Part shown: piece after piece, positions 4,793-14,938 of the stretch
Layout of the letters: each line of letters opens with the position of its first letter
How positions within the stretch are numbered: position 1 is the first letter of the stretch
DNA from: Fodinibius halophilus
GTDB lineage: Bacteria > Bacteroidota > Rhodothermia > Balneolales > Balneolaceae
Direction: 5' to 3'
Assembly (NCBI RefSeq): GCF_011059105.1
Contig: NZ_JAALLS010000021.1
Location: forward strand, 20,107 to 84,106
Length of the DNA: 64,000 nucleotides
Notes under the pieces: generated by a model
Seen by the model: only the letters and a program-made list of their open reading frames with translations
Database searches by the model: none
Told to the model about the DNA's origin: nothing
Made by a program: the position numbers and the translations under genes

Positions 4793-7264
4793 TTAAAGTC
4801 TGAGACCATCAAAGTTATACTTGACTGAAAGCCAATACGTACGGCCCTGAGGAGCAGCTCCAAGAAGATCTACCTTTTCATTATCAAATACATTATTTAC
4901 ACTCCCCTGAACAGAAAGTCCGGTATCAGCAATATCAAAGCCGGTAGACAGATCCAATTGAAACTTTGCAGGCAGCTCTTCTTTATCAGTCAGATCTCCG
5001 TCATCATCTAACAGTACATTCGTATTCCAGTATCCTGAATTGTACTGGTAGCTGTCTTGCCAGCGGCCTTTTATTTTGAAAAACGGAGCCTGTAAAGACG
5101 AACTGTCAAAGATATTCTTTGCCGTTATTCCCCCTTTTACTTTTAATGGTGGTGTATTCAATGGCAACGTAGCATCAGTAGTTTCATTGGTAAAATCAGT
5201 AAGCTTAATAGTAGACATGCTAGCTGAAATGCTGTAGTTATCATTAAAATAGTAGTTTAAGCCTATATCAAAACCTTGCACTGTTGCTTCACCAAAGTTG
5301 ATATACGTTTGTAAAGCCGTAAAATTACTTCCTTGAACCATAACCGGACTTCCATTTTGATATGCTATGGTATTGGCCCCATCTGCTACAACATCTGTCC
5401 CAATGAAGTTTTTATACCAAGAGATATATCCTACTACATCTACAAAAAGTTTTTCACCAAAAATCCCTTTGTATCCAAGTTCCACTGAATTAACCTCTTC
5501 CGGATTTGTGGGGTCAATGGTGTTAACAACATTTCCGCCGGCATCTTTTATTGTATATCCCTCATTATTTCCTTTGATCAGGAAATCATAATTTGGAGCA
5601 AAAAGATCCGGAACCGGTATATAAGCATGGCTTTGTAATATTGTAGGAGTAGTATATGCCCGGTTATAGGTAGCCCGGATATTATGTCCAGGTGCAGCTG
5701 TAAAAACTAAAGATCCCTTGGGACTAAACTGCATATCATAATCACTGTTTCCATCCAACCGAGCCGCAGCAACTAACTGCAACTGATCAGGGATTACATC
5801 ATAGTCAACCTGAAGATAGCCGCCCATTAACTCACGACTAATATCTTGTCCGGAACCATCTTGTAGATAGGTACCCTTGGATTCTGGCATAAACTTTCGG
5901 TATTGCACACCGGTAACCAATGAGAGAGCTCCGAAGGTATTGTTATACTGGAGTTCTGAATCATAAATTTGGGTATCATCAATAAAGGAGACACTTTCGC
6001 GAATACTCTCAATATCTACCTGATCCAGTGATGCCCCGGCATTTACCGCTGCCTGTACTGCTGGTACCACCTGGTTAAGCTGATAACTGCCGGCCTTATT
6101 TCCTGTTCGGCTAAACTGCGCATACCAATGGCTGCCACTTACTTGCAATGTCTGATAGTCTACCTCCCAATCTTTGATTCGGTTTCGGCCATTTGAAGTA
6201 AGAGAAAACTGATCTGTTGATGACCATCCATAAGTACCGGAAACTTTCCAATCACCCATTTTATAATATAAGGACCCATTAATTTTGGTAGCTCCTACAT
6301 CATAATTTTCTACTACATCCGACTCAAACACTGTATTAGCCGACGTTGGCTTAGTACCGGCCGTCTGGTAAAAGTGCAAGCTGTCTTCACGTTTTGGCTT
6401 AAAATCAACGGCTTTCATATACTGTCCGGTAACCTTCCATCCAAAACTATTATTTACGGTACCGGCTACGCGATAAGTGATATCTCGAAGCTTTTGATTA
6501 CCTGCTTTGGCGGCAACCGTTACTCCCGACTGATCCCACGGATCTTTGGTTGTAACATTAATAACACCTGATCCTGCATTAGGTCCGTACAATGCAGCAG
6601 CAGGCCCCAATACAACCTCGATACTTTTTAAATCAATCTTGCTGGAAGGTAAAAAGTTACCCTGCGGCAAACCTGTACCTCCAAGGGTAGCTATACGTCC
6701 GTCAATTAAAAATAACATGCGCGTATTAAAACTACTGTTAAAACCACGGGCAGAAACCAGCTGTGTATTCACCCCGGCATTTGAGAAATTAATCCCCTTT
6801 AAGTTCGCTATGGAAGACATAAACGTATTTCCACCTGAAGTTGCAAGCTCTTCACTGGAAATACGTTCTATAGTAGTTGGCGACTCTAATAGCTTTTCTG
6901 GCTGCTTAGATCCAGACACCACTACTTCATCCCCAGACCAAACGGTCTTCTCAAGCTGAATATCGACCGTTGTGGTTTTACCTGCCACAACAGAAACAGG
7001 CTCACTTTCAAAAGTAGCAAAGCCTAAATACGTTGCTTTTATGCGATATTGCCCTTCTGCTACATTGGTAATTTCGTACACGCCTGAACCATCTGTTGCG
7101 GCTCCTCTGGTCGTACCAACTAACGATACATTTACTCCGGGCATTACCTTTCCCGATTCCTGATCTGTAACCGTACCCTTTATGGCACCACCATTTTGAG
7201 CCCATCCACTTGATGCTATGCCCATCAAGGCACACAACAATGTAATAGTTGCTAGTTTTTTCAT
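4793..7264 (-). CDS. TonB-dependent outer-membrane receptor with carboxypeptidase-regulatory domain
   Basis: Outer-membrane beta-barrel importer of 823 aa. The ATG at 7264 is preferred over one 12 bp upstream because it begins a standard signal peptide (MKKLATITLLCALMGIASSGWAQ). Residues ~28-110 form a CarboxypepD_reg-like beta-sandwich (IKGTVTDQESGKVMPGVNVS), ~115-230 the plug (RMLFLIDGR, IEVVLGPAAALYGPNAGSGVIN) and the rest the barrel, ending in an aromatic-rich strand (YWLSVKYNFDGLRL). It lacks an adjacent SusD and the SusC signature, so it is a stand-alone receptor. It is the last gene of the regulator-hydrolase cluster but has its own upstream region with a copy of the 16-bp palindrome at 7330-7345. 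It probably imports that pathway's substrate (inference). Confidence 0.93.
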   Translation of the reverse strand: MKKLATITLLCALMGIASSGWAQNGGAIKGTVTDQESGKVMPGVNVSLVGTTRGAATDGSGVYEITNVAEGQYRIKATYLGFATFESEPVSVVAGKTTTVDIQLEKTVWSGDEVVVSGSKQPEKLLESPTTIERISSEELATSGGNTFMSSIANLKGINFSNAGVNTQLVSARGFNSSFNTRMLFLIDGRIATLGGTGLPQGNFLPSSKIDLKSIEVVLGPAAALYGPNAGSGVINVTTKDPWDQSGVTVAAKAGNQKLRDITYRVAGTVNNSFGWKVTGQYMKAVDFKPKREDSLHFYQTAGTKPTSANTVFESDVVENYDVGATKINGSLYYKMGDWKVSGTYGWSSTDQFSLTSNGRNRIKDWEVDYQTLQVSGSHWYAQFSRTGNKAGSYQLNQVVPAVQAAVNAGASLDQVDIESIRESVSFIDDTQIYDSELQYNNTFGALSLVTGVQYRKFMPESKGTYLQDGSGQDISRELMGGYLQVDYDVIPDQLQLVAAARLDGNSDYDMQFSPKGSLVFTAAPGHNIRATYNRAYTTPTILQSHAYIPVPDLFAPNYDFLIKGNNEGYTIKDAGGNVVNTIDPTNPEEVNSVELGYKGIFGEKLFVDVVGYISWYKNFIGTDVVADGANTIAYQNGSPVMVQGSNFTALQTYINFGEATVQGFDIGLNYYFNDNYSISASMSTIKLTDFTNETTDATLPLNTPPLKVKGGITAKNIFDSSSLQAPFFKIKGRWQDSYQYNSGYWNTNVLLDDDGDLTDKEELPAKFQLDLSTGFDIADTGLSVQGSVNNVFDNEKVDLLGAAPQGRTYWLSVKYNFDGLRL

Positions 7265-7329
7265 AATAATCCCCATTTACAGTTTATGTTGCCGTTTACC
7301 TTTATAACACTTTTCATGTTTATCAAAGT

Positions 7330-7351: not shown

Positions 7352-8434
7352 TTACTTTATTTTTTTATTACCGCCTTCTATATGCCTTAACATGGCGCTA
7401 AATACCTTTTGGGGTTTTTCGATGAAGGGAGTATGCCCACAATCATCGATATATCGTACAGCTACTTCGCCCCCTTCTCCTTTATATTTCTCCAGGGCAT
7501 ACTCAATTTGAGAAATCATCGGTTGGGGCGGATAGCGATCTTGACCCGGCCAACCTTCCCGTAGCTTCAACCTTCCCTGGTACCCCGGATCTGAATAAGA
7601 CTGTTCAGCAATAATTCGATCATCTGTCCCATGGATCCAGAGCAGAGGGGGCTTCGGGCTGGCCTCAACAAATTGCGATAGCAATGCTATATTATACTTT
7701 GGTGAAAGCGCATTCACCGGGCCATAACTTCCGGGGGCTACCCCCGGCCAATAATCAGACTTCTTGTAATCTCCCGGATACTGTTGTGGACCTGTATGTA
7801 TCTGGAACATAGCTGACAAAATATCCTCCTCGCGCATTGCCCGGAACCCATTTTTCCAAAAAAGCCGGTTCATTGTGTTCCGGGGTGAAAACATCGTGTC
7901 AGATTCCGAACGGTCTTGCTCCTCAATACGCTCCACAAACTCGGATACTACAATACCCCCGCCTGAACCAGAAAAGTCCTCGTTATTTGCAATTCCTTTG
8001 GCACCATGAATACCTCCAAATCCCATGGGCGGACCCGGCGCCATTAATGTTGCTGTACGTATTTGGCCAGCAAACTCTGCTATCATTCTCCAGCATATAA
8101 AACCGCCAAGTGAATGACCTATCAGGTGAAAGGGACCTAGCTCCATAGCTGCAATTAGAGCACCTAAATCATCTATCCAATCCTGTGTTCCTTCAGTAGC
8201 ATCAATTAGCTTATCTTCAGTTTTCCCAAATCCCCTCAGGTCGGGGGCTACACAATAGTAGTTTTCAGACATCTCCAGCATAAACCCTTCCCAGATAGTG
8301 GAACAACTGGTATTTCCGTGAAGAAAAAGCATAGTCGGATTTTCTTCTTTCCCGGCCGTTAACAGGTGCATGCGTAGCCGACTGGTATCAACATGCTGAA
8401 CTTCTATACCATCAAGATGCCTTATTTTATCCAT
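7352..8434 (-). CDS. Alpha/beta hydrolase (cytoplasmic)
   Basis: Alpha/beta-hydrolase fold enzyme of 360 aa, without a signal peptide. The visible catalytic set is: oxyanion motif LFLHGN, nucleophile S108 in GHSLGG, an acid at D271/D272 in HGTDDRI, and H334 in DCGHTPF. It carries a ~100-residue cap between ~130 and 245, longer than in simple esterases and more like epoxide hydrolase or haloalkane dehalogenase relatives. The ATG at 8434 lies inside the last codons of the acyl-CoA synthetase gene (ATGGATAA, 8-bp overlap), indicating translational coupling; the longer reading frame upstream is overlap with that gene. Substrate unknown; in the cluster it is the last cytoplasmic enzyme before the TonB receptor. 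Confidence 0.88.
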   Translation of the reverse strand: MDKIRHLDGIEVQHVDTSRLRMHLLTAGKEENPTMLFLHGNTSCSTIWEGFMLEMSENYYCVAPDLRGFGKTEDKLIDATEGTQDWIDDLGALIAAMELGPFHLIGHSLGGFICWRMIAEFAGQIRTATLMAPGPPMGFGGIHGAKGIANNEDFSGSGGGIVVSEFVERIEEQDRSESDTMFSPRNTMNRLFWKNGFRAMREEDILSAMFQIHTGPQQYPGDYKKSDYWPGVAPGSYGPVNALSPKYNIALLSQFVEASPKPPLLWIHGTDDRIIAEQSYSDPGYQGRLKLREGWPGQDRYPPQPMISQIEYALEKYKGEGGEVAVRYIDDCGHTPFIEKPQKVFSAMLRHIEGGNKKIK

Positions 8435-9944
8435 GATGGCGGTTGTTAAATTCTTCTTCCAGATCCTTTTTCTGAATTTTATTTGAATCCCCAACAGGTA
8501 ACTCTTCTCTAAGTATCACATGCTTAGGCAACTGGTATCCGGCCAGGTAATCCCGGCAATACTCCAACAGCTCTTCTTTTGATAAACTTGCCTCCTTATG
8601 CAAGACAATGTAGGCACAACCGGTTTCTCCCCACTGATCGTCGGGCACCCCGATTACAGCCACTTGTGCTACCGCCTCATGTTGATATATTACCTTTTCG
8701 ACCTGCACCGGATACACATTTTCACCTCCGCTGATATACATCTCTTTTTTACGTCCTACCATGTAGTAGTACCCTTCATCGTCACATCGAAACAGATCGC
8801 CGGTATGGACCCAACCATCATCGAAGGCTTGTTCTGTTGCATCAGGATTGTTCCAATAGCCCTTAAAAACATGGGGCCCTTTCATCAGAAGCTCTCCCAC
8901 TTCGCCCTGCGGAAGCTCTTTATTTTGTTCATCTACAATTTTAACCCCGATATGAAAATTGGGGAACCCTACCGATCCTTTTTTTCGGATTGCATCTTCT
9001 GCAGGCAGTGAATAACAATTGGGACCTGCTTCGGTTAATCCATAGCCTTGCCTTATAGGCACCCCTTTTTCCTGATACCCCTTAATGATAGGAATGGGAC
9101 ACGATTCGCCGCCACAGATTGCAAACCTAACACTGCTAAAATCAGTTTCTTCAAAGTTATCTTCCTCCATCATCATTCGAAGCATCGTAGGAATACCAAA
9201 CAAGATGCTGATCTCTTCTTGATCTACCAGCCGATTACACTCTGCAGCATCAAATTTGGGCTGTAGTATCAGCTTGCCTCCATGATGTATCAAAGGCGTG
9301 AGAAGTACATGCCAGCCACCGGTATGATAGAAGGGCGTATTGACAAAAGAAGAATCATCCCCAGTAAGTCCTAAACTGATTTCAGTATTGAGCGAATTCC
9401 AATGAATCTGCTGCCATGATATCATCGCCCCCTTGGCTTTTCCCGTTGTTCCCGAGGTATACAAAATCATTGCAATATCGTTGGCGGAGCTCTCGTAAGG
9501 GAGTACCTCGGGCTGTTCTGTTTGCATAACGGCTGCAACAGCACGCTCCCCCTCATCCAGCATTTGATAAGAACAGCTATTGCACTCTGCAATATCGGTC
9601 ACTACTTCTGAAAATTCTTCAGCACTCACCAACAGATGGGGATCACAATCTGACACCTGCTCCTTCAACCCTGCCTTGGGCAAGCGATAGTTCAATGGTA
9701 CCAAAACGGCTCCAATTTTGGCACAGGCAAAAAACAACACCAGGTACGATATACTATTTGGGGATACAACCGCCACCCTATTACCCGCTTCTAACCCCTC
9801 CCTATGCTGCAGGTAACCTGCCAGCTGAGTTGCCAATTCATTGAGATCACGATACGTATAACGGTTGCCCGTAGTACTGTCGATGACCGCTTCTTTATGC
9901 GGGCTGTGGCGATCCCTTTTCGTAAGCCAGTTGTTATAATTCAT
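8427..9944 (-). CDS. AMP-forming acyl-CoA synthetase / ligase
   Basis: ANL-superfamily enzyme of 505 aa that adenylates a carboxylic acid and normally passes it to CoA. Motifs seen: P-loop LYTSGTTGKAKG (162-173), YGLTEAG (301-307), GWVHTGDL (377-384), hinge GRKKEMYISGGENVYP (397-412) and the C-terminal Lys K489 in SNKIQKK. All are intact, so it should complete the adenylation and thioester steps. The gene starts 1 bp after the symporter stop and overlaps the next hydrolase by 8 bp, so it belongs to a tight operon. The acid may be the product of the secreted hydrolase or a fatty acid. It could instead act like OleC (beta-lactone synthetase), but the standard motifs fit a CoA ligase better. Confidence 0.9.
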   Translation of the reverse strand: MNYNNWLTKRDRHSPHKEAVIDSTTGNRYTYRDLNELATQLAGYLQHREGLEAGNRVAVVSPNSISYLVLFFACAKIGAVLVPLNYRLPKAGLKEQVSDCDPHLLVSAEEFSEVVTDIAECNSCSYQMLDEGERAVAAVMQTEQPEVLPYESSANDIAMILYTSGTTGKAKGAMISWQQIHWNSLNTEISLGLTGDDSSFVNTPFYHTGGWHVLLTPLIHHGGKLILQPKFDAAECNRLVDQEEISILFGIPTMLRMMMEEDNFEETDFSSVRFAICGGESCPIPIIKGYQEKGVPIRQGYGLTEAGPNCYSLPAEDAIRKKGSVGFPNFHIGVKIVDEQNKELPQGEVGELLMKGPHVFKGYWNNPDATEQAFDDGWVHTGDLFRCDDEGYYYMVGRKKEMYISGGENVYPVQVEKVIYQHEAVAQVAVIGVPDDQWGETGCAYIVLHKEASLSKEELLEYCRDYLAGYQLPKHVILREELPVGDSNKIQKKDLEEEFNNRHHG

Positions 9945-11548: not shown

Positions 11549-12538
11549 CTACCATCGGTAAGCACAGGCTCCAAAATGAAGCCCTCCCCCCGAGCCTACA
11601 AATACCAATAGATCTCCATCCTTCACCGCACCGTCTCGTAGAGCGGAATCAAAAACCATGGGAATTGCTGCCGATCCGGTATAACCAAACCGGTCCATGA
11701 TCGTAGGAGCAATAGCTCTTTTTAGCGACAAATTATCCATGGTCTCCCAAATTTGGTTGATATTTATTTGGGTCATATAGGCCCCTGAAATTTCATCGGT
11801 ATCAAACTTGGCTTTTTCAGCCAGGCTACGGATCATATCTGTCCATATGCGTGGGTTTATCTCTTTGGGGAACTTTTCAACAAACTGAAGGCACTGTGCG
11901 CCTCCCTGCCTTTCACTGCGCGCCGCCGGTGCAGCAGCGCCCCCTCCATATATCCCCATATGCTTATAATACTCCGGCTTGGTACGCAGGTCAGAAGCTA
12001 AAAAGCCAACCCCCTCTTCGTCGGTCGGTTCCAGTATAACCGCTCCGGCGCCATCGGCAAAGAGGGTAACCGTTTTCTTGTCATCGAGATTTAAAAAACG
12101 GCTCATCCCATAAGCCCCCATCACCATCACCTTTTGGTAAGTGGGATCTGTGGACATCATGCTATTTGCCATTGTTAAGGCAGTAGGGAACCCTGCACAA
12201 GCTGTATTGGTATCCAGCGATGTAGCATTTTCAAGCCCCATCTTATGCTGTACCACCGAAGCTGTTGAAGGTGAAATAAAATCGGGAGTATCCGTTGCAA
12301 TAATCAACAGATCAATATCTTCTGCCCCCATGTTGGCCATCTTCAACGCACTATTACCTGCTTGCACACATAAATCACTGGTCGTTTGATCTTCTTCCAT
12401 CCAGCGGCGTTCGCGGATAGTAAGATTTTCTCGCAGCCAGGTATCAACATCTTCGCCCAACTGCTCATTAAACCATTCATTTTTAATAACCCGGTCCGGG
12501 GCATACGAACCACTTGCTACAATTTTTGAATGCCTCAT
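11549..12538 (-). CDS. KASIII-like (FabH superfamily) enzyme lacking the catalytic His and Asn
   Basis: Thiolase-fold protein of 329 aa, similar throughout to 3-oxoacyl-ACP synthase III (SYAPDRVIKNEWF, IRERRWMEED, GSGGGLHFG). The nucleophile C114 is present in NTACAGF. Where FabH has PHQAN with the catalytic His, this protein reads MTQIN (T256), and where FabH has GNTSAAS with the catalytic Asn it reads GYTGSAA (Y286). Decarboxylation of malonyl-ACP should therefore be impaired. The protein may instead be an acyltransferase, a non-decarboxylating condensing enzyme or an acyl-thioester hydrolase (inference). The ATG shares one base with the SDR stop (TAATG), so the two are co-translated. Confidence 0.88.
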   Translation of the reverse strand: MRHSKIVASGSYAPDRVIKNEWFNEQLGEDVDTWLRENLTIRERRWMEEDQTTSDLCVQAGNSALKMANMGAEDIDLLIIATDTPDFISPSTASVVQHKMGLENATSLDTNTACAGFPTALTMANSMMSTDPTYQKVMVMGAYGMSRFLNLDDKKTVTLFADGAGAVILEPTDEEGVGFLASDLRTKPEYYKHMGIYGGGAAAPAARSERQGGAQCLQFVEKFPKEINPRIWTDMIRSLAEKAKFDTDEISGAYMTQININQIWETMDNLSLKRAIAPTIMDRFGYTGSAAIPMVFDSALRDGAVKDGDLLVFVGSGGGLHFGACAYRW

Positions 12539-13281
12539 TATACGACAAGTCCCCCATCCACCTGAATAACCGTTCCTGTTATATATTCTGCCTGATCAGA
12601 AGCCAAAAAAAGATAGGCTGCTGCAATGTCTTTTGGCTTGCCTAGGCGCCCCAGCGGAGTCTGCTCTTTCAATTTATTTAGTACTTTTTCGGGCACTGTA
12701 TCTACCATGGGTGTTTCAATAAAGCCGGGGGCTACTGCATTGACACGAATACCCTTGCGTCCCAACTCACGGGCCCAGGTCTTGGTAAGCCCCACCACCC
12801 CCGATTTTGTTGCCACATAATTACTTTGTCCAAAGTTGCCATACAAGCCTACTACTGAACTGGCATTTAATATCACCCCTGACTCCTGCTCGCGCATCAA
12901 CTCAGCTGCCGCTTTACCACAGTAAAACACTCCATTTAAGTTAACATCCATCACTTGCTGCCACTCATCAGCACTCATTTTTTTTAGTGTGGCATCTCGC
13001 GTAATACCGGCATTGTTGACGAGCACATCCAACCTACCCCAACGTTCGTGCAGCCCAGACATCGCCTGCTGAACGGCATCATAACTGGTGACATCTACTT
13101 TTTCAAAATGGACCTCATATCCTTCGGTTTTCCATGACTCCATCAACTCCTTTGCGGCCTCCTCTGCCATATCCCAAATTTCTACCTTCGCGCCGCGATC
13201 AATAAACTGCTGAGCCGTTTCCTGGCCAATACCCCCGGCTCCACCTGTTATCAATACAACGTTATTTTTAAAATCTATCAT
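12538..13281 (-). CDS. Short-chain dehydrogenase/reductase, FabG-like
   Basis: Classical SDR of 247 aa that reduces a 3-keto group, or oxidises the hydroxyl, with NAD(P)H. Seen: cofactor motif TGGAGGIG (12-19), NNAG (89-92), catalytic S142, Y155 and K159 in the YVATK motif, and PGFIETPM. All catalytic residues are present and the length is normal for FabG. The start chosen is the ATG at 13281; a GTG two codons upstream is possible. It sits 15 bp after the secreted hydrolase gene and overlaps the KASIII-like gene by one base. Its partner is probably the product or substrate of that enzyme rather than general fatty-acid synthesis. Confidence 0.9.
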   Translation of the reverse strand: MIDFKNNVVLITGGAGGIGQETAQQFIDRGAKVEIWDMAEEAAKELMESWKTEGYEVHFEKVDVTSYDAVQQAMSGLHERWGRLDVLVNNAGITRDATLKKMSADEWQQVMDVNLNGVFYCGKAAAELMREQESGVILNASSVVGLYGNFGQSNYVATKSGVVGLTKTWARELGRKGIRVNAVAPGFIETPMVDTVPEKVLNKLKEQTPLGRLGKPKDIAAAYLFLASDQAEYITGTVIQVDGGLVV

Positions 13282-13296
13282 AACCACTTACCACTG

Positions 13297-14250
13297 TTAT
13301 TTATTTAAGAAATTCAAAATTAATTCATTAACCGTACCCGCTTGCTCAAAGTGGACGAAATGCCCCGCTTCCGGTATCATCTTCAGCTTACTTTTTGGTA
13401 TCTTTTCGTGGCCAAACCGAGCCACTTTTTGAGTTGTCAAATCCGGATGCAGTTGGCGGTTGGGTATCAACATATCCTGCTTGCCAAAAACTATAAGTGT
13501 AGGCTGTTCCACCTTCGACAACTCCTCTGCCACCGGGTCTTCTAGCATCGCTTTCACCGAAGAGGCATAGGCACGGGCATAGCCATCAAAATGATCTGCT
13601 TGTCGAATTGTAATACGATCTTCAATCATAAATTCTGCTTCGGCGGGAAAATCAAAAAATGTAGTCTTAAACGTTTGGCGAATCAATGAATCCGGCGTCG
13701 CTTTAATAGAAGATGGAGTTACAAAGCTACTCAGTATTTGCCCTTCTTGTTGGGTAAACCTCTCAAAGCCTGCCGGTGCCAGCAATACTAAACTTGATAT
13801 CTTTTCCGGGTACTCTAATGCTGCACGCAGTGTAATTTGTGCCCCCATCGAATGCCCCATCCAGGTAGCTTTCGCAATACCCAGCGAATCCTGAAGTTCG
13901 GCTACGGTTTCAGCAAAAAAAGGAATGCTATAGTGATCTGCACTTTTTGAACTTTTCCCAAAGCCAAGTAGATCTACGGCAATAATGCGATGTGATTCCT
14001 TTAGCACCTCGATATTCTTTTTCCATGCCGGAATATAACTGCCAAGGCCATGAATCATAATAACAGCGGGCCCTTCTCCTATATCCGAATAGGCAACACG
14101 AAGGTCGGAACTCAGCTGCTGGTATTTAACCGTATAGGGATAATCGAGATCAGAAAATTGTACCGTCTGGCCCTTAAGAAGAGAGGAAGGAATTAATAAA
14201 GCTATCCCCAAAAAACATATTAGCGCTATATATCTGTGCCTTATATCCAT
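13297..14250 (-). CDS. Exported alpha/beta hydrolase
   Basis: Alpha/beta-hydrolase fold enzyme of 317 aa with an N-terminal hydrophobic segment (YIALICFLGIALLIPSSLLKGQ) that looks like a signal peptide or membrane anchor, so it should act in the periplasm. The catalytic triad is visible: S134 in GHSMGA, D259 in FGKQDMLIP, H297 in EAGHFVHFE; the oxyanion motif is HGLGS. It is the first gene of the enzyme operon, with a copy of the 16-bp palindrome 23 bp upstream of its ATG. It may cleave the imported compound, for instance an ester or lactone, to an acid that the symporter and acyl-CoA synthetase then handle (inference). Confidence 0.88.
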   Translation of the reverse strand: MDIRHRYIALICFLGIALLIPSSLLKGQTVQFSDLDYPYTVKYQQLSSDLRVAYSDIGEGPAVIMIHGLGSYIPAWKKNIEVLKESHRIIAVDLLGFGKSSKSADHYSIPFFAETVAELQDSLGIAKATWMGHSMGAQITLRAALEYPEKISSLVLLAPAGFERFTQQEGQILSSFVTPSSIKATPDSLIRQTFKTTFFDFPAEAEFMIEDRITIRQADHFDGYARAYASSVKAMLEDPVAEELSKVEQPTLIVFGKQDMLIPNRQLHPDLTTQKVARFGHEKIPKSKLKMIPEAGHFVHFEQAGTVNELILNFLNK

Positions 14251-14272
14251 ATTAATCCTAATTTATTAAATA

Positions 14273-14288
14273 TTTGAAAAGTTCCAAA
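14273..14288. promoter_or_regulatory. 16-bp palindromic operator candidate of the enzyme operon
   Basis: TTTGAAAAGTTCCAAA. Its reverse complement differs from the site before the regulator (14854) at one base only. It lies 22 bp upstream of the exported hydrolase ATG, where a bound repressor would cover the promoter or block the polymerase. Confidence 0.75.
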
Positions 14289-14307: not shown

Positions 14308-14793
14308 TTATTCCGTTATCTCTTTATGTTTCTCTTCCCAGGCATCCATGAACTTTTCGTTATACTCATCCATCAGCTCATAAAAAGATTTCATAATCTT
14401 CATCTGTTTTTTGATGAATGCTGCACTTGAAGAATCCATTGACTGAGCCTGCATCAGGTATTTTTCAGCGATCTCAATATTCTTCTGCATCTTGTTAATC
14501 TGATTTGCATAGGCTTTGCCAAAAATATCATCGGCCGCCTGATAGTAATCTTTTCGATCCCCCGGAATCCACACCTTCTCAATTAGCCCGCGTTCTTTAA
14601 GCCGTCTGCATATTTGTGAGATAGGTCCTTTACTCATCTCTAGTTTTTCTACAAAATCATCCAGCGACTGAGGGTCTTCCGAAATGATAAGTAACCCTAC
14701 AATGCGTCCCATTAATGGGTTAAGCCCAAAATTGCTATACCCCTCCGCAAAATCTGCGACTATTTGCTGGGTAAGTTTGGGATGATCCGACAT
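14308..14793 (-). CDS. GbsR/MarR-type transcriptional regulator
   Basis: Winged-helix regulator of 161 aa. Residues ~30-90 hold the helix-turn-helix (GRIVGLLIISEDPQSLDDF, EKLEMSKGPISQICRRLKER) and wing (IEKVWIPGDRKDYYQ). A long helical tail, which should dimerise, follows. The GPISQ recognition helix and N-terminal half resemble the GbsR subgroup, whose known members repress choline or betaine genes. Here the neighbours are acyl-processing genes, so the ligand is likely different. A palindrome at 14854-14869, 60 bp upstream, suggests self-control; copies also precede the hydrolase operon and the TonB receptor. Confidence 0.88.
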   Translation of the reverse strand: MSDHPKLTQQIVADFAEGYSNFGLNPLMGRIVGLLIISEDPQSLDDFVEKLEMSKGPISQICRRLKERGLIEKVWIPGDRKDYYQAADDIFGKAYANQINKMQKNIEIAEKYLMQAQSMDSSSAAFIKKQMKIMKSFYELMDEYNEKFMDAWEEKHKEITE

Positions 14794-14853: not shown

Positions 14854-14869
14854 TTTGAAACTTTTCAAA
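14854..14869. promoter_or_regulatory. 16-bp palindromic operator candidate upstream of the regulator gene
   Basis: TTTGAAACTTTTCAAA, 60 bp before the regulator start. It matches TTTGRAANNTTYCAAA, as do the sites at 7330, 14273 and 49692. A further half-site-like TTTGCAAA follows directly at 14872-14879. It lies between the regulator gene and the end of mutS. Confidence 0.75.
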
Positions 14870-14938
14870 TATTTGCAAACTTATTTTTCTCATTTTTAGA
14901 AATGGCGATAGAATACCGTGACAGCCAACCTTTTCTGA

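Follow-up and report, generated by a model that had tools for sequence, protein, structure and literature searches.

A KASIII-fold protein with a Cys-Thr-Tyr site, encoded in a candidate operon for the uptake and breakdown of an organic acid or ester

Introduction

Should a KASIII-fold protein that has kept the Cys of FabH and lost its His and Asn still be counted as a FabH, and if not, what could it do? The question is raised by a gene of Fodinibius halophilus located on the minus strand at 11549-12538 of the window, by which we mean the whole stretch of 64,000 nucleotides analysed here (contig NZ_JAALLS010000021.1, positions 20,107 to 84,106). Its product, an open reading frame of 329 amino acids that we call the KAS protein, had been singled out by a first-pass annotation made from the letters alone, which proposed an acyl-transfer chemistry different from that of FabH and tied to the neighbouring SDR. 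The adjacency of the SDR is borne out by our analysis, but the evidence points to a wider operon for import and breakdown rather than to the SDR alone.

Results

Active site and fold of the KAS protein

The KAS protein contains two Pfam domains, PF08545 (84.8 bits) and PF08541 (73.7 bits), both above cut-off and the only ones found at an E-value of 0.001. When aligned with E. coli FabH, Cys114, within the motif NTACAGF, falls on Cys112, Thr256 (in MTQIN) on His244 and Tyr286 (in GYTGSAA) on Asn274, just as the first-pass annotation had read them, and Asn247 of FabH (not to be confused with Asn274) is retained as Asn259. The alignment was also searched for another His or Asn that could occupy the site: His is absent from all invariant and 90%-conserved columns among 45 members, and Asn259 is the Asn that is kept. 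The AlphaFold model (mean pLDDT 94.0, pTM 0.93) has the KASIII/FabH fold and can be overlaid on E. coli FabH (6x7r) across 318 residues with an rmsd of 1.6 Å and a Z-score of 46.3. Its closest solved structures are, over the whole chain, FabH and BioZ (4dfe, Z 47.1; 9w96, Z 47.0), a result on which Foldseek agrees; the PqsD structure 3h77 scores Z 43.4, and OleA is absent from the best 50 structure matches listed by Foldseek and the Z-scored comparison.

None of the NCBIfam models that match the KAS protein does so at its curated cut-off. The FabH model TIGR00747 gives 200.2 bits for a cut-off of 292.1, and the HMG-CoA synthase model TIGR01835 lies far under its own (32.1 versus 360.35 bits). 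Since the FabH and KASIII matches of the curated models are all sub-threshold, carriers of the gene may be miscounting it in fatty-acid synthesis. A further match, PRK06840, scores 140.5 bits, which is less than general FabH models (236.4 and 200.2 bits), and the ligase encoded in the same operon matches PRK06839; the consecutive numbering of the two models raised the suspicion that a counterpart might exist in a known Bacillus operon. The genome holds three more matches to the KASIII C-terminal domain (C1:293162-294127, C4:80856-81797 and C6:95685-95954), the first two of which retain His and Asn.

The C-T-Y proteins form a clade

Relatives were sought by tblastn (E 1e-3) in a collection with one genome per species, covering 84,980 species. 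The scan matched at least 507 stretches, of any class and not all of them clade members, and the best 80 (loci L056-L135, 50-84% identity) were read, so the figures out of 80 that follow describe the upper part of the matches. Cys114, Tyr143, Thr256, Gln257, Asn259, Tyr286, Thr287, Gly288, Ser289 and Ser316 are each identical in 80/80 loci, and the GGG loop is invariant in all of them. The same picture is obtained in a set of 58 relatives' genomes, the organism's own included, of which 18 encode a homologue of at least 50% identity, the remaining matches lying at 24-35%: Cys, Thr and Tyr are present in all 18, a sample that shares with the 80 loci at least 10 contigs, as judged by equal length. 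A survey of the phylum (296 genomes) found 45 places with scores of at least 359 bits, after which the best score drops to 225. Residues were read at 18 of these 45 places (10 near relatives and eight others), and the eight further members all have Cys, Thr and Tyr, with Thr287 changed to Ile in one. At the first place below the gap (G283), His and Asn are both present. A homologue on a Chloroflexota plasmid, with 39% identity to the KAS protein, also carries Cys, Thr and Tyr; it is the one read (H1) of 368 plasmid records.

The suggestion that homologues with the Thr/Tyr pair might form a clade of their own is supported by a tree in which one branch, with one change and an SH-aLRT of 99, splits 46 C-T-Y rows from 14 C-H-N rows; the tree was built without the columns around the three active-site residues and by a quick method with no bootstrap, and its long branches (L054, L136, L022 and E. 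coli FabH) could produce false joins. General KASIII models are matched by 45/45 members of alignment A2. The clade occurs in Bacteroidota, Balneolota, Ignavibacteriota, Chlorobiota, Calditrichota, KSB1 and on the Chloroflexota plasmid. Within the family of F. halophilus the KAS gene is found in 9 of 92 genomes, a patchy presence that suits an accessory pathway. Judged from their sequences, the C-T-Y residues are neither chance nor sequencing error, and the enzymes that carry them are a well-bounded new variant within KASIII. In the open literature that we searched, we recognised no description of this clade or of its operon.

Changes around the active site

What the exchanged residues imply can be read from FabH. 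For mtFabH, PMC2680598 assigns to His244 the role of the base activating Cys, so that loss of this His could weaken acylation too. In FabH, according to PMC10054515, Asn274 and His244 hydrogen-bond the enolate that arises from malonyl-ACP decarboxylation, and the oxyanion hole consists of the amides of Cys112 and Gly306. The oxyanion pair is retained in the KAS protein as Cys114 and Gly318; the enolate pair is the one replaced.

Other positions of FabH have changed across the clade as well. Lys214, Arg249 and Lys256, which we take to be the basic patch on which ACP docks, correspond to Glu in 79/80, Asn in 79/80 and Asp in 70/80 loci, respectively. The position of Trp32, presumably a CoA contact, is Trp in 80/80, and that of Arg36 is Asn in 79/80. 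Phe87, which we assume to be the gate of the acyl pocket, is Ser89 in 80/80, and the position of Phe304 is Ser in the KAS protein. The simplest reading of these residues is that of a CoA-using, non-decarboxylating enzyme with a roomier pocket. By analogy with the enzymology of FabH, on which the argument rests, the C-T-Y protein probably runs a reaction other than FabH's.

The operon in the window

The KAS gene is part of a cluster on the minus strand that reads, in order, marR, ABH1, SDR, KAS, Na+ symporter, acyl-CoA synthetase, ABH2 and TonB receptor. The MarR-family regulator (14308-14793) is assigned by PF12802 at 28.2 bits, for a cut-off of 27. It is followed by ABH1 (13297-14250), an alpha/beta hydrolase by its domain match whose hydrophobic N-terminus suggests that it is probably exported, and by the SDR (12538-13287). 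Downstream of KAS lie a sodium:solute symporter (SSF, PF00474; 9946-11496) and an acyl-CoA synthetase of the AMP-binding type (8427-9944), assigned by its domain and by its nearest solved relatives, the fatty-acyl-CoA synthase 8weu and the feruloyl-CoA synthetase 8wev. The gene of the second alpha/beta hydrolase, ABH2 (7352-8434), overlaps that of the synthetase by 8 bases, its start being placed at the ATG at 8434 in preference to the TTG at 8494 of the ORF list; an export signal was not seen in ABH2. In a crude test across relatives, a hydrophobic N-terminus was found in 57/70 ABH1 and 2/26 ABH2 proteins. The hydrolases of the operon also have weak depolymerase matches. Last in the cluster, both in the window and in its near relatives, is the gene of a TonB-dependent outer-membrane receptor (4793-7276).

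Upstream of marR, an operator-like palindrome spans 14859-14882, composed of an exact copy of the 16-base motif AACTTTTCAAATATTT on the plus strand (14859-14874) and a copy with two mismatches on the minus strand (14867-14882). A second exact copy lies between marR and ABH1 (14268-14283, minus strand). Three hits with at most two mismatches compare with 0.19 expected by chance, a post hoc figure because the motif was picked after having been seen twice. In four near relatives (L036-L039) the motif recurs close to both positions, with no more than two mismatches. These copies are likely candidates for the binding site of the MarR protein, consistent with control of the operon by this regulator.

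The SDR and KAS genes have one base in common, their junction reading TAATG, as the first-pass annotation had noted. The SDR is of the FabG type and carries Trp38-Asp39 at the end of beta-2. An acidic residue at this place in SDRs is the usual mark of NAD preference, and the matching position of E. coli FabG is Ala36. Among the 69 SDRs of loci L056-L135, each the best SDR of its locus and in some cases other than the adjacent one, Asp39 is present in 68 and Trp38 in 67. The closest solved relative of the SDR (not of the KAS protein) is the NADH-dependent FabG 4nbu, at 282 bits, which is reported in a passage of PMC5264612 to be bound to NAD. Two other positions blur this NAD-type sign. That of FabG Arg15 is Arg or Lys in 13 of 86 SDR rows, a row being the best SDR of each locus and sometimes other than the adjacent one. 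That of FabG Arg172, presumably an ACP contact, is Lys in 82/86. It is possible that the SDR is an NADH-using reductase, and the evidence for its cofactor, read from these residues, is not clean.

The operon across relatives

The first-pass annotation had also asked whether the Thr/Tyr pair travels with the operon, and it does. The SDR lies directly upstream of KAS, on the same strand, in 57/80 loci, and an acyl-CoA synthetase within 5 kb downstream in 69/80; 17 of the 80 loci offer less than 3 kb of downstream sequence. Counting any same-strand homologue in loci L056-L135 (BLAST, E 1e-10), a procedure by which general families such as SDR, MFS and hydrolases are perhaps over-counted, the 80 loci, many of them on short contigs, have the acyl-CoA synthetase in 69 cases, the sodium:solute symporter (SSS) in 61 and SDR in 59, or 71 when both strands are considered. 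Next come ABH1 (54 loci), MarR (43), a lipoprotein (42) and an outer-membrane barrel (41), followed by TonB (22), a thiolase (20), ABH2 (15), MFS (11), MaoC (five) and L-serine dehydratase (three). When the count is confined to the 42 loci that extend 8 kb or more in both directions, the same-strand figures are 42 for the synthetase, 40 for ABH1, 37 for SSS, 30 for SDR, 22 for MarR and four for MFS. As a control, the 12 kb around the organism's own FabH (L053) hold KAS and SDR (45%) matches and no other operon gene. The operon as a unit is well supported by this gene content, and its parts are those expected of a route that would import, activate and oxidise an acid.

Several loci vary the theme. 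An MFS transporter stands in the usual place of the Na+ symporter in about 10 of them (such as L072:9932-11266 and L102:8307-9569). The lipoprotein and the outer-membrane barrel, found in 41-42 of the 80 loci (for example L098:13029-15250), are without Pfam match; the barrel model (mean pLDDT 76.2) has AlgE as its closest match, with carboxylate channels of the Occ type ranking lower, at identities of about 10%. L-serine dehydratase adjoins ABH2 in 3/80 loci (L061:16868-18352, L065:16876-18330 and L067:12058-13515), a hint that the substrate could release serine there.

Discussion

From the residues and the gene order we infer the use of CoA rather than ACP, an oxidative direction and uptake of the substrate. 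That the KAS protein depends on CoA and serves a degradative operon, rather than being a FabH, is, in our judgement, quite probable. The full statement, in which a CoA-dependent and non-decarboxylating KAS protein performs thiolysis within an inducible operon for the uptake and degradation of an acid or ester, is a reading that we hold tentatively and with some doubt; within it, thiolysis itself and the parts played by Thr256 and Tyr286 are put forward as a hypothesis. An organic acid or ester would enter through the outer-membrane receptor, exported ABH1 would hydrolyse it, and the symporter would bring the acid in, to be converted by the ligase to acyl-CoA. In some relatives a MaoC hydratase would hydrate an unsaturated chain. 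The NAD-type SDR would then turn 3-hydroxyacyl-CoA into 3-ketoacyl-CoA, and if so, the KAS protein would be the next enzyme of the transcript. Cys114 would attack the 3-keto carbon, acetyl-CoA would leave, and the shortened acyl group would move from Cys114 to CoA, as in the retro-Claisen step of thiolases. The His and Asn of FabH would have their counterpart in Tyr286, possibly aided by Thr256, as hydrogen-bond donor to the departing enolate.

With thiolases, acetyl-CoA acetyltransferase included, the KAS protein would share its Cys nucleophile and the reaction proposed here. It differs from them in having no match to Pfam Thiolase_N or Thiolase_C, and in a profile comparison with 14 thiolases of the operon it aligns only over residues 50-146 around the Cys, at a probability of 18.8. 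The thiolase site includes a His and a second Cys. The organism's genome contains four other thiolase-domain matches, which rules out that the KAS protein is the sole thiolase of the cell; together with the thiolase present in 20/80 loci, they mean that thiolysis by the KAS protein may be superfluous.

The main rival to thiolysis, which we consider unlikely, is that Cys114 takes an acyl group from CoA and hands it to an acceptor other than carbon, be it a hydroxyl, an amine or a thiol; the CoA-driven splitting of an ester-linked dimer would be one such case. The two alpha/beta hydrolases and the ligase of the operon do suggest ester chemistry, and Ser89 in place of Phe87 in 80/80 loci would fit a larger acyl group, given the presumed gating role of Phe87. 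KSIII-like acyltransferases are known, as a passage of PMC9573744 relates: CerJ and ChlB3, which resemble the KAS protein in their KASIII fold, their Cys nucleophile and possibly a transfer without condensation. According to the same passage, CerJ and ChlB3 use Cys-His-Asp, whereas the 45 aligned C-T-Y members have no conserved His. This transfer also lacks a known candidate acceptor.

We consider it decidedly unlikely that the KAS protein joins acyl-CoA to acetyl-CoA or a malonyl thioester through a new carbon-carbon bond, the SDR then reducing the product with NADH. A KASIII fold adjoining a FabG-type SDR would suit such a condensation, and FabG enzymes that use NADH exist, to judge from a title cited in PMC5264612. 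Yet the His and Asn with which FabH decarboxylates are missing in 80/80 loci, the presumed ACP patch is lost, and importers, hydrolases and a ligase surround the KAS gene.

An ordinary FabH that tolerates both changes and feeds fatty-acid synthesis is very improbable. The KAS protein does share with FabH (E. coli 6x7r, B. xenovorans 4dfe) a whole-chain fold at Z 46-47 and the Cys, the Gly306 loop, Asn247 and Trp32; FabH and BioZ are its nearest folds, and generic KASIII models recognise every member of A2 (45/45). Differences from FabH are the replacement of His244 by Thr, of Asn274 by Tyr and of both Phe304 and Phe87 by Ser, the loss of the presumed ACP patch and the catabolic-type operon around the gene. 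The genome encodes, apart from the KAS protein, a FabH that retains His and Asn (L053), and we set ordinary FabH aside on the residues, the separate clade with its gap of 359 versus 225 bits, the different neighbours and the patchy presence in 9/92 genomes of the family. The 3-oxopimeloyl-ACP synthase BioZ (9w96, 6kue), nearly as close in fold (Z 47.0), and PqsD both have a Cys-His-Asn active site, in difference to the C-T-Y of the KAS protein. Finally, a non-catalytic protein that binds acyl-CoA or serves the SDR as a scaffold, as the two altered catalytic residues out of three and the SDR directly upstream in 57/80 loci might suggest, is hard to credit when the Cys, the GGG loop and the Thr/Tyr pair are invariant in 80/80, which argues for an active site in use.

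Two kinds of substrate come into view. A hydroxycinnamate is suggested by the match of the ligase to 8wev, and an (R)-3-hydroxyalkanoate would fit the FabG-type SDR, the MaoC protein of some loci and the weak depolymerase matches. In the portion of PMC11837543 on the VceA/VceB route (vanilloyl acetate), we found no tie of VceA to KASIII. Identifying the substrate would put a name to a carbon source of many poorly cultured bacteria, and the operon already sketches a degradation route with its regulator, transporters, activation and oxidation. Whatever the reaction, invariant Thr and Tyr in place of the decarboxylation pair offer a natural test of the role of those residues in ketosynthases. A bolder claim, which we regard as speculative and rather unlikely, is that thiolase chemistry arose a second time, in KASIII, making the Thr/Tyr clade a degradative enzyme that cleaves 3-ketoacyl-CoA at the centre of an uncharacterised acid breakdown. 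Were it true, the His/Asn enolate pocket of FabH would have been replaced by Thr/Tyr in a KASIII clade turned degradative.

Two clusters are built differently from that of the window. On the Chloroflexota plasmid CP069395.1 (L136:8179-18993), SDR and KAS are accompanied by a hydrolase and, in place of ligase and symporter, by a CoA transferase, an ABC transporter and a thiolase that has an OB-fold partner. Another cluster (L164:2852-10972) encodes two KASIII proteins, with 22% and 42% identity to that of the window, along with two acyl-CoA synthetases and one SDR.
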